Below are positions 575 to 31,187 of a stretch of 64,000 nucleotides of DNA, piece by piece; positions within the stretch are counted from its first letter, which is position 1; each line of letters starts with the position of its first letter. The notes below the pieces were generated by a model. It saw only the letters and a list, made by a program, of their open reading frames with translations, made no database searches and was not told the origin of the DNA. Position numbers and translations under genes: made by a program. The stretch covers positions 62,001 to 126,000 of the forward strand of contig NZ_PDIZ01000003.1 in NCBI RefSeq assembly GCF_002563635.1. The letters are read 5' to 3'. The DNA is from Bacillus sp. es.036. Lineage in GTDB: Bacteria; Bacillota; Bacilli; Bacillales; Guptibacillaceae.

Positions 575-1477
575 ATGAATCATGAACTTTCAATTATCGG
601 TGTACCAATGGATCTTGGGCAAATGAGACGCGGTGTCGATATGGGACCAAGTGCCATTCGATATGCAGGAATAGTCGAACGGTTAACAAAATTGAATTAT
701 GATATTGAAGATCTTGGAGATATTGAAATTGGTAGACCAGAAAAGCGACCTGAGGATCAAGATCATCAGCTGAAGAACTTAAAAGAAGTGGCTGATGCTA
801 GTGAGAAGCTTTCTAACGTTGTTAATGATGTCGTAAATCGAAAGCGTTTTCCGTTAGTGTTTGGAGGAGATCATAGTATTGCAATCGGAACTCTTGCGGG
901 AGTTGCGCGTAATTACGATAATTTAGGGGTTATCTGGTATGACGCCCATGGAGATTTAAACAACTCAGAAACGTCACCATCTGGAAATATACACGGTATG
1001 CCACTTGCTGTAAGTCTAGGAATTGGCGATGATTCTTTAACTGGAATTTCAGGATACTCTCCTAAGATTAAGCCTGAGAATATTGTGATTATCGGCGCTC
1101 GTTCACTTGATGAAGGAGAGCGAGAACTTATTAAAGAAAAGGGCATTAAAGTTTATACAATGCATGAAATTGATCGAATGGGTATGACAAAAGTAATGGA
1201 AGAAGCGATTGAGTATGTATCGAAGGATGCAGATGGTGTGCATTTAAGTCTTGATCTCGATGGACTTGATCCACACGATGCACCTGGAGTAGGAACGCCA
1301 GTGCTTGGAGGAATCAGCTATCGTGAGAGCCACCTTGCGATGGAAATGCTTGCAGAAGCCAATATTCTAACATCAGCAGAATTTGTTGAAGTGAACCCTA
1401 TTTTGGATGAAAAAAATAAAACGGCTACAGTGGCTGTTGCATTAATGGGGTCTTTATTCGGAGAAAAATTAAAATAA
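575..1477 (+). CDS. rocF: Arginase
   Basis: This enzyme hydrolyses L-arginine to ornithine and urea in arginine catabolism and is cytoplasmic. The 300-residue protein has all three manganese-binding motifs of the ureohydrolase family: GGDHS at 97-101, DAHGD at 123-127 and DLDGLD at 227-232. A GAGGAGG ribosome site precedes the ATG by a normal distance, and the length is that of Bacillus arginases. In B. subtilis rocF sits with other roc genes, whereas here it stands alone upstream of sigW, an order known from Halalkalibacterium halodurans. A possible ARG box upstream suggests arginine control. Confidence 0.95.
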   Translation: MNHELSIIGVPMDLGQMRRGVDMGPSAIRYAGIVERLTKLNYDIEDLGDIEIGRPEKRPEDQDHQLKNLKEVADASEKLSNVVNDVVNRKRFPLVFGGDHSIAIGTLAGVARNYDNLGVIWYDAHGDLNNSETSPSGNIHGMPLAVSLGIGDDSLTGISGYSPKIKPENIVIIGARSLDEGERELIKEKGIKVYTMHEIDRMGMTKVMEEAIEYVSKDADGVHLSLDLDGLDPHDAPGVGTPVLGGISYRESHLAMEMLAEANILTSAEFVEVNPILDEKNKTATVAVALMGSLFGEKLK

Positions 1478-1482
1478 CATAG

Positions 1483-1520
1483 AAAACCGCTGCTTTCTTC
1501 ATTAGAAAGCAGCGGTTTTT
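1483..1520. terminator. Terminator between rocF and the convergent Spo0E-like gene
   Basis: A 16-bp perfect stem (1483-1498 with 1504-1519) has a 5-nt loop. It has A residues on the left arm and a T-run on the right, so it can act in both directions. It includes the last codons of the opposing gene. Confidence 0.85.
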
Positions 1521-6977: not shown

Positions 6978-7035
6978 ATAGAAGTATGTTTGGTTTTTAT
7001 TCAAGAAGGGAAAGAGAGGGAAGTTAGGTTACTTT

Positions 7036-7210
7036 GAAAAAAAGCGCCTGGACTGTTTTTCGAACGGAAGAAAACAGTTGACGAGGAAGAGGTTTATCGA
7101 TCATCGGCGGATACCTCTCGATTGCTTCACCACAATCGAATGGTTTTGTGAAAAACAGAGAGGTGACTTTCTGAACAAAAGCAAAACTATGGTGACATAA
7201 TAGAAATTAA
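7036..7210 (+). ncRNA. glmS ribozyme (glucosamine-6-phosphate riboswitch)
   Basis: The leader contains the conserved ribozyme core: A-GCGCC at the cleavage site (cut expected between 7043 and 7044), a P1 arm ACTGTTTT/AAAACAGT, then GACGAGGA, GGTTTATCGA, TCGGCGGAT and CCTCTCG segments in order, ending with GGTGACATAATAG. Glucosamine-6-phosphate serves as cofactor for self-cleavage, and the cut mRNA is then degraded, so GlmS product feeds back on glmS expression. Confidence 0.95.
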
Positions 7211-25017: not shown

Positions 25018-25136
25018 GTATATTTCGTATATTTTTGTTACGATTTTGCATTAGGACTTGTGCCAAACTCAATACAATTCTACTATTAGAGTATGACATG
25101 AGTCATATCCATTTTTTAATGGGAAGGGGAACACGA

Positions 25137-25466
25137 ATGTTTAATATTTTATTACAGTCTCACTCAGGTTCATGGGCGATTCTTGTTTTGCTTTTAGTGA
25201 TTAGTTATTTTGCACCTAAGCAAAAGATCTCGCTGATGATTCAACGCTTATTTTATCTGATTATGCTTGGTACAGGTATCGGAATGCTCTTTATTCTTGG
25301 TTTTCCACTGATCTATGTACTTAAAGGAATTCTGGCGATTGTGTTAATCGGTGTTATGGAAATGATTGTAGGAAGAAAGAAGCGTGGCGAATCAACAAAG
25401 ATGCTTTGGATTGCGTGTATTGTTCTAATTTTAGTGATTATTTCAATCGGGTACAACTGGATTTAA
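25137..25466 (+). CDS. yisL: YisL-family membrane protein (DUF1516)
   Basis: This 109-residue protein has four hydrophobic segments and belongs to the YisL (DUF1516) family of Bacillus membrane proteins of unknown role. The ATG at 25137 follows AAGGGGAAC; a longer reading adds 34 residues without a ribosome site. It stands alone between two terminators. Confidence 0.75.
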   Translation: MFNILLQSHSGSWAILVLLLVISYFAPKQKISLMIQRLFYLIMLGTGIGMLFILGFPLIYVLKGILAIVLIGVMEMIVGRKKRGESTKMLWIACIVLILVIISIGYNWI

Positions 25467-30013: not shown

Positions 30014-30112
30014 GGATAGTCCCCCTATTTTTTTATGTGCTTTTCTTATAATAGAGGAATTAAACCGCTTGCACAACTATTGAGTCTTCTATGAAATGTG
30101 CTTGATGTTAAT

Positions 30113-30149
30113 GATAATGCTTCTCATTATCATTAAGCCGTGCTATAAT
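30113..30149 (+). promoter_or_regulatory. Fur box and promoter of the 55-residue membrane protein gene
   Basis: GATAATGCTTCTCATTATC (30113-30131) matches 16 of 19 bases of the Fur box. It overlaps a TTCTCA -35 (30121-30126) that is 17 bp from a perfect TATAAT -10 (30144-30149). Iron-dependent repression of the next gene is expected. Confidence 0.78.
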
Positions 30150-30181
30150 GATAAAAACATTCAAAATAAGAGGTGGATAAA

Positions 30182-30349
30182 ATGGTTGAAACGTTACAGA
30201 TATCCATGTTTTTGTTCATTTTGCTCTTGTCTTTCACAGCATTTGCGCTAGTTTTGAGAGCAGAGGCGGTTAAAAGTGGATATGGACGTGATAAAAAATC
30301 AAGCGCATTTGAATCAACACCTTCGATTTCATTTAAGAAAAGTTATTGA
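30182..30349 (+). CDS. Small Fur-controlled membrane protein of unknown function
   Basis: This 55-residue open frame has a GAGGTGG ribosome site six bases before its ATG and a Fur-box promoter upstream. The product has one hydrophobic segment, about residues 7-26, followed by a basic and serine-rich tail (VKSGYGRDKKSSAFES). No family was recognised. The stop codon overlaps the -35 of a second Fur-box promoter. B. subtilis has small Fur-regulated proteins (Fbp) that work with the sRNA FsrA, but no sequence likeness to them is claimed. Confidence 0.7.
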   Translation: MVETLQISMFLFILLLSFTAFALVLRAEAVKSGYGRDKKSSAFESTPSISFKKSY

Positions 30350-30378
30350 CTTTGTAATTGATAAAGATTATCATTATC
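30346..30378 (+). promoter_or_regulatory. Second Fur box and promoter of candidate sRNA
   Basis: TTGACT (30346-30351), 17 bp, and TATCAT (30369-30374) each match the sigma-A hexamers at five of six bases. GATAAAGATTATCATTATC (30360-30378) matches the Fur box at 17 of 19 bases and covers the -10. A transcript would begin near 30381. Confidence 0.8.
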
Positions 30379-30380
30379 AT

Positions 30381-30507
30381 CATAGAAGAGAATAGACATG
30401 GTGTTCCCCGACACAAATTGTTCTATAGCATTCAAACAAAGCCAAAGAAGTTCCCCCTTCTCCAATTGTTTGATGATCGTAGCTGCCAACGCCGGCAGCT
30501 ATTTTTA
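30381..30507 (+). ncRNA. Candidate Fur-regulated small RNA with C-rich loops
   Basis: No credible reading frame lies here. The transcript predicted from the Fur-box promoter folds into three hairpins. The first has GTGT/ACAC closing the loop TCCCCG, with an outer ATAGAC stem. The second has TCAAACAA/TTGTTTGA outside and GAAG/CTTC inside, closing the loop TTCCCC. The third is the terminator AGCTGCC/GGCAGCT followed by TTTTTATTT. Two C-rich loops in an iron-repressed short RNA recall FsrA of B. subtilis and IsrR of S. aureus; function is inferred. Confidence 0.7.
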
Positions 30508-30647
30508 TTTGCACAATTTTATAATTATACAAAGCCCTTATTATATCAGGCTTCAAAAGAAATTTTTATCCATTTATTCTCATTTACAAATTTGGATTTA
30601 GTGCTAAACTATTTTTTGGAAGTAAACATCAATAGGGGGTATGACAT

Positions 30648-31187
30648 ATGAAGAAGTTATTATCTGTTTTAAGTTTATCCATGCTTCTAATCGTAGCAGC
30701 GTGCGGTTCAAATACAAACAGTGAAAGTGAAACAAGTGGAGAAACAGAGCAAGCAGATACGAAAAGTGTTCTACTAGATTTTCAATCAGAAGTGGTGAGT
30801 GTTCTTAAGAAACATAATGACGCAATCGTCGCTTATGAATCAGCAAAATCTGCTTTTCATGACAGTGAAACACCTGAAGCAGACAAGCCTTCAACAGAAG
30901 AGCTTGAAGAGTTAAAAGGAAGTGCTATTGAAGCTAGTAAAGCAACAGTAGAAGGTATCAAAGGTCTATCTGTTCCAGCTGAACTAGACGACTCTAAAGA
31001 GGAAATTGAGAGTGCATTTGACGATTTAACACAAGCATATACCATTCGCGCAGAACAAGCGGACATTGCTGATCCTTCTGTACAGGAGAAGGCGTTAGAG
31101 CAATTTACGAAGTTTGAAGATAAAATGGGTAAGGTTTTTGAAGATACTGGTCTTATTAAGCCAAGTTTTGTGAAAGAGTTACAATAG
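30648..31187 (+). CDS. Putative lipoprotein of unknown function
   Basis: This 179-residue protein has a lipoprotein signal peptide (MKK, hydrophobic stretch, lipobox IVAAC with C19), then a Ser/Glu-rich spacer and a helical domain rich in Glu, Lys and Ala. No enzymatic motif is visible. An AGGGGGT site precedes the ATG. A weak promoter (TTTACA-16-TAAACT) may lie at 30583-30610. It should be anchored on the outer face of the membrane. Confidence 0.75.
   Translation: MKKLLSVLSLSMLLIVAACGSNTNSESETSGETEQADTKSVLLDFQSEVVSVLKKHNDAIVAYESAKSAFHDSETPEADKPSTEELEELKGSAIEASKATVEGIKGLSVPAELDDSKEEIESAFDDLTQAYTIRAEQADIADPSVQEKALEQFTKFEDKMGKVFEDTGLIKPSFVKELQ

Follow-up and report, generated by a model that had tools for sequence, protein, structure and literature searches.

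A predicted Fur-repressed, iron-sparing small RNA with a duplicated C-rich seed in the Pseudalkalibacillus group

A stretch of 64,000 nucleotides from Bacillus sp. es.036 (contig NZ_PDIZ01000003.1, positions 62,001 to 126,000 of the forward strand; hereafter the window) most probably contains the gene of a genus-specific, Fur-repressed, trans-acting small RNA (sRNA), which would spare iron in the way of FsrA and IsrR and in which a single seed occurs twice. The RNA itself is new, and the functional kind to which it would belong is known. Expression of the sRNA, its control by Fur, its pairing in the cell and the repression of translation are all deduced from sequence. An iron-sparing sRNA had been proposed at this position in the initial annotation, and this reading appears well supported by conservation in 14 genomes, by a Fur box present in 14 of 14 and by complementarity of the seed to candidate target sites, evaluated against background genes and outgroups. 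The locus comprises the following features, numbered along the window.

30113..30131, no strand assigned: upstream Fur box GATAATGCTTCTCATTATC before the small-protein gene, 17 of 19 to consensus
30121..30149, plus strand: P1, promoter-like TTCTCA-17-TATAAT with a TG ahead of the −10 and sharing bases with the upstream Fur box, by consensus match only
30182..30349, plus strand: small-protein gene P0001, 55 amino acids with one hydrophobic segment (by eye), from the open reading frame and its conservation
30346..30374, plus strand: P2, predicted sRNA promoter TTGACT-17-TATCAT, by consensus match, TTGAC in 14 of 14 congeners
30360..30378, no strand assigned: Fur box GATAAAGATTATCATTATC over the −10 region of P2, 18 of 19 to consensus, identical in 14 of 14
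30381..30507, plus strand: small RNA of about 127 nt, its start placed by the spacing from the −10
30401..30414, plus strand: hairpin 1, GUGU[UCCCCG]ACAC, with seed copy 1 GUUCCCC, complementary to the sdhC and hemH1 ribosome sites
30432..30473, plus strand: hairpin 2, inner part GAAG[UUCCCC]CUUC, with seed copy 2, complementary to the sdhA and acnA ribosome sites
30479..30507, plus strand: intrinsic terminator, from the fold and a terminator scan

The promoter under a Fur box that the initial annotation had described was recovered. This box fits the consensus in 18 of 19 letters on the plus strand and in 17 of 19 when read on the minus strand. The two Fur boxes of the window gave four rows at three or fewer mismatches, with 0.03 expected from shuffled sequences, and 17 columns of the upstream box, aatgcttctcattatca, were identical across the 14 aligned congeners. 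Promoter-like sites numbered six in the 601 bases of the locus (3.1 expected), and a scan of 30050 to 30650 found a single terminator, at 30479 to 30502, where an intrinsic terminator had already been recognized. The features listed by the first annotator were described correctly; the second Fur box at 30113 and the 55-codon gene in front of the sRNA had been overlooked.

Folding of the RNA from 30381 to 30507 gave −33.4 kcal/mol (z −4.1), a stability that none of 200 shuffled sequences reached. All ten sequences folded, the present one and nine from congeners, were more stable than their shuffles, with z values from −3.9 to −5.7. The predicted fold contains the two hairpins with loops TCCCCG and TTCCCC that had been noticed by eye, and the seed GUUCCCC is present in both loops. 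The letters of the outer stem of hairpin 1 differ among clades, yet the stem is paired in most single folds; in one congener (L014) the predicted fold differs at hairpin 1. Two congeners have an RNA about 25 nt shorter. The statement that the RNA holds no credible reading frame was also confirmed, as a search for a conserved coding frame in the 14 congeners returned only ATG-started frames of 8 to 67 codons with varying starts.

A DNA search of 101 genomes detected the locus in all 14 genomes of the genus (the Pseudalkalibacillus group, our own included) with one strong match each, and outside the genus it gave only matches of 22 to 63 bases around the Fur box. A covariance model built from 13 sequences was run on 397 genomes of the order and found 14 matches at 80 to 153 bits, all in the genus, the next one scoring 34.8 bits; weaker matches at E ≤ 0.1 in another 34 genomes were left aside. 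Four genus genomes showed a second, weak match to the model. A pattern search of contigs returned 11 records, two of which (L062 and L070) were dropped as chance matches judged by their surroundings; the nine genus records belong to Pseudalkalibacillus hwajinpoensis, P. spartinae, Alkalihalobacillus macyae, A. algicola and Bacillus/Alkalihalobacillus strains. Pseudalkalibacillus is placed in the Fictibacillaceae in the NCBI taxonomy. Across the genus there is almost no change in the two loop hairpins, and variation is found in the first 20 bases of the RNA, the spacers and the terminator loop. Hairpin 1, GUGUUCCCCGACA, is invariant in 13 of 13 aligned rows (L010 was omitted as having the same RNA as L009). 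In hairpin 2 a single C to U change occurs in L012, and the outer stem is missing in L013 and L014, which are two species. Because the RNA is nearly invariant, covariation is weak, with a two-sided change in one of 26 pairs. The open-access literature searched, outside which most subscription journals lie, holds no description of the sRNA for Pseudalkalibacillus, P. hwajinpoensis or Alkalihalobacillus.

Pairing of the C-rich loops with ribosome sites, which had been suggested initially, was predicted for iron-protein genes. A scan of the genome with GGGGAACN{2,12}ATG gave 63 matches and the reversed pattern 21. Most of the 63 were not gene starts and lay inside genes or in front of short frames; among the 57 distinct sites that were translated, from which one match inside leuC was left out, about 13 looked by eye like true gene starts, including those of sdhA and hemH1. 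The sdhA gene was named by eye and by its position after sdhC (TIGR02046), and hemH by PF00762. The sdhA ribosome site AAGGGGGAAC is present in 14 of 14 genus genomes. The same holds for the sdhC site, given as GGGGGACAC or AAAAGGGGGACACAC, which pairs with a wobble or a bulge. The acnA site G[AG]AGGAGGGAACTAC, also written G[AG]AGGAGGGAACTACATATG, was found in all 13 starts read from the 14 genomes and likewise pairs with a wobble or a bulge. For hemH1 the site GGGGAAC occurs in 13 of 14 genomes, the exception (G003) having GGGGATACAC. In this set of four genes (sdhC, sdhA, acnA and hemH1, with leuC excepted) the RNA has the conserved complementarity to iron-protein ribosome sites asked of Fur-repressed iron-sparing sRNAs. 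As a conserved target leuC was rejected, since AAAGGGGGATC is present in three of the 14 genomes and AGGAGGATGGG in the other 11.

Some further observations concern the target genes themselves. Each genome has two ferrochelatase genes (L170-L183 and L281-L294), and in the MAKK/MGKK-type one the seed match is present in 13 of 14 genomes; in hemH2 GGGGAAC occurs in two of 14, upstream of its ribosome site. The aconitase match in one genome (G004, C4:188976-190470; L129, L131) consists of two neighboring parts that lie in different frames, for which a frameshift in the assembly may be responsible. Over the 45 bases preceding sdhC the 14 species hardly differ (L132-L145; in L133 about 1440-1488, minus strand), a conservation that seems to exceed what ribosome binding alone would need.

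From these elements we propose the following mechanism. When iron is plentiful, Fe-Fur would cover the −10 region of P2, as the position of the box suggests, and the sRNA would be off. When iron is low, the sRNA would be transcribed from P2 and, as no terminator was found in between, would probably be produced in a second way too, at the 3′ end of the message of the Fur-boxed small-protein gene. Its two hairpin loops would present one seed, GUUCCCC. For loop 1 the best predicted partners are the Shine-Dalgarno regions of the sdhC and hemH1 messages, and for loop 2 those of the sdhA and acnA messages. Such pairing would block ribosome entry and lower the synthesis of succinate dehydrogenase, aconitase and one ferrochelatase, by which iron would be spared.

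Excerpts of the published accounts allow a comparison with known iron-sparing sRNAs, which are said to have function and targets in common but not sequence (PMC9410917). FsrA of Bacillus subtilis is described as an 84-nt Fur-controlled RNA with the targets sdhCAB, citB, gltA, lutABC, dctP and leuCD (PMC8464778). For IsrR of Staphylococcus, PMC12607789 reports binding to acnA and sdhC and a lowering of heme synthesis, and RyhB is said there to act on hemH. The present RNA resembles IsrR, as excerpted, in being (by prediction) Fur-repressed, in having two Fur boxes and in C-rich regions that lie partly in hairpin loops (PMC9410917), as well as in its predicted targets acnA, sdhC and the heme pathway (PMC12607789). 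It differs from the description of IsrR, to which three C-rich regions, three hairpins and a terminator are ascribed, with both Fur boxes in its own promoter region (PMC9410917), whereas two C-rich loops are found here. With FsrA it has in common a Fur box on the promoter, a short terminated RNA and the C-rich seed UGUUCCCC at a similar distance from the box, and sdhCAB and aconitase are among its predicted targets. The Fur-controlled promoter expected of an FsrA member is predicted here by the Fur box on P2. In FsrA, however, the predicted seed is mostly unpaired after a 5′ hairpin, whereas here it is duplicated in two hairpin loops; the present sRNA also follows a small-protein gene, its leuC match is not conserved and it has no Rfam match. 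By analogy, the likeness to FsrA and IsrR drawn at first sight is supported as a functional parallel by the Fur box, the C-rich loops and the shared predicted targets.

The Rfam search that had been recommended produced no FsrA. The FsrA model (RF02273) found nothing at E ≤ 10 in the 601 bases of the locus, nor in four genus genomes, while B. subtilis matched, nor at E ≤ 1 in the seven of 13 congener loci scanned. Run on 101 genomes, it gave one match above the cut-off; two weak hits proved by eye to be terminator regions without an obvious Fur box. Rfam scans of the sRNA revealed no relevant family, and a match to the PrrF model at 17.3 bits (cut-off 90) was discarded as noise. RyhB and PrrF of Gram-negative bacteria resemble the present RNA in the Fur-repressed saving of iron, and differ from it in seed and structure. 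They also differ in working with Hfq, according to an excerpt of PMC9410917.

The RNA could be an orthologue of FsrA that has diverged strongly, and not an analogue of independent origin. This is a question of descent, compatible with an iron-sparing sRNA, and we regard orthology as possible but doubtful. The common layout of promoter and Fur box, with UGUUCCCC as the seed some 30 nt beyond the box, speaks for it, as do FsrA homologues stated in an excerpt of PMC12871923 to exist in Bacilli, Staphylococci and Listeria. A Fur half-box followed by GTTCCCC was found in 42 of 397 genomes (five with the reversed control), of which 14 have the present RNA and 10 have FsrA, all in one genus. Twelve of the other 18 genomes were inspected and rejected as chance matches, having boxes of 11 to 15 of 19 and, in one of the six frames, a frame of 122 to 657 codons over the seed; no third case of the layout of seed and Fur box was seen among these 12. 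Against common descent stand the silence of the FsrA model, the different predicted folds and the scores of the present RNA's model on FsrA loci, which at 22 to 24 bits were no better than on an unrelated terminator, with the seeds out of register. An sRNA with the seed of FsrA and, by prediction, its core targets in a Bacillus relative that yielded no FsrA makes it possible to test divergence against convergence. FbpB is linked to FsrA function in B. subtilis in an excerpt of PMC12871923. The present genome has two FbpB-family genes, one of them just downstream of acnA (C1:1239671-1239787 in our genome, G000), and coordinates suggest the same arrangement in some other genera, for example in G041 and G042.

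A C-rich sRNA might also have other G-rich ribosome sites as its true targets, acting as a general anti-Shine-Dalgarno RNA of which the iron-enzyme matches would be by-products. The predicted pairing was compared with a background of 392 genes, which a simple script had called in the window and in 20 evenly spaced samples of 20 kb each. Taking for each target its better loop, background genes with an energy as low numbered two for sdhC and two for hemH1 with loop 1, and three for sdhA and four for acnA with loop 2; the loop segments place all four in about the best 1% of the background. When the best energy among three segments was taken, between 7 and 13 of the 392 genes were as low as the four targets and 17 were as low as hemH2, a gene that lacks the seed match in this genome. 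The duplex energy computed with 98 nt of the RNA singled out neither sdhC (133 of 392 as low) nor sdhA (49 of 392), and the corresponding counts were six for acnA, 13 for hemH1 and 23 for hemH2. Several background genes thus paired at equal or lower energy, and among 11 of these inspected by eye none was recognized as an iron protein, some resembling flhA and permease genes, which is in line with a general action. The 7-base seed match, on the other hand, is rare, GGGGAAC being present in one of the 392 background ribosome regions. The gene concerned, at 25137 in the window (25126-25463), presumably encodes a YisL-like small membrane protein; it lies behind GGGGAACAC, a perfect match to loop 1, and is a possible extra target.

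The seed match is moreover conserved in sdhA and hemH1 within the genus. A draw of 61 genomes contained 60 with sdhC, and from these 29 loci of other genera served as outgroups. None of the 28 outgroup sdhA starts that were read has GGGGAAC and none pairs at as low an energy, the sites being mostly of the AAGGAGTGAGT type. For sdhC, the outgroups have GGGGG in 29 of 29 loci, GGGGAAC in two and GGGGGACAC in none, and one of 29 pairs as well with loop 1. For acnA (30 loci), GGGGG was found in 24 and GGGAAC in none, and three to four pair as well with loop 2. Because these outgroup sites are already G-rich, or in part pair as well, the sdhC and acnA test is only partly informative; both would fit as ancestral G-rich sites. 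The strongest target case is sdhA; its lineage-specific ribosome site offers a clear example in which to follow the recruitment of a target by an sRNA. We consider a general anti-Shine-Dalgarno action unlikely and retain the iron-sparing sRNA.

The small-protein gene upstream is intimately joined to the sRNA. Its TGA stop lies inside the −35 TTGACT of the sRNA promoter, and this overlap is kept in 14 of 14 congeners. Of 14 pairs tried for dN/dS, eight could be computed, two having saturated dS and four unequal lengths; values were 0.05 to 0.12 in four pairs of the closest clade and 0.23, 0.23, 0.29 and 0.52 in wider pairs. The 55-codon frame behaves as a real gene, by these values under purifying selection. 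No Pfam or NCBIfam family scored above cut-off, and a search of 150 genomes found no clear relative beyond the genus, where the best E was 0.007. Since no terminator was found between the gene and the RNA in the scan of 30050 to 30650, transcripts of the Fur-boxed small-protein gene probably run on and have the sRNA as their 3′ end. One may go further and see in the RNA merely the 3′ untranslated region and terminator of that message, with the internal promoter and second Fur box incidental. The missing terminator, the Fur box on the upstream promoter-like site and the selection on the frame agree with this, but the internal −35 and Fur box are kept in 14 of 14 genomes and a 3′ untranslated region would need neither near-invariant loops nor genus-specific complementarity to sdhA. 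An sRNA released from the small-protein mRNA would besides act identically. This explanation seems to us slightly less probable still than the general anti-Shine-Dalgarno action.

That a conserved small-protein gene is packed so tightly against the predicted iron-sparing sRNA suggests that a protein as yet unstudied takes part in the response to iron starvation. Tentatively, and with less than even confidence, we can picture a Fur-derepressed transcript that encodes a small membrane protein and ends in the sRNA, and an internal Fur promoter, its −35 being the stop of the frame, that yields the sRNA alone. In this picture the small protein might act in the response as well, either as the membrane partner of the sRNA or as a brake on an iron-using membrane enzyme. 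The sRNA would have arisen independently of FsrA and converged on the UGUUCCCC seed and on the sdh and aconitase targets, and the sdhA ribosome site would have changed in the lineage to fit.

That the RNA is a 5′ leader or attenuator of the lipoprotein-like gene at 30648, as a structured RNA with a terminator upstream of a gene could suggest, is very improbable and was rejected, as the locus has no Rfam riboswitch match and the synteny check advised at the outset found the cassette kept in 14 congeners while the nearest recognized downstream gene changes between clades (lipoprotein in eight, pepQ-like in four, bdbC-like in two). The neighboring genes of the locus encode an aldo/keto reductase, DoxX and PepQ/BdbC-like proteins. 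Elsewhere in the window, the Rfam scan located a glmS ribozyme at 7032 to 7198 with 121.6 bits.
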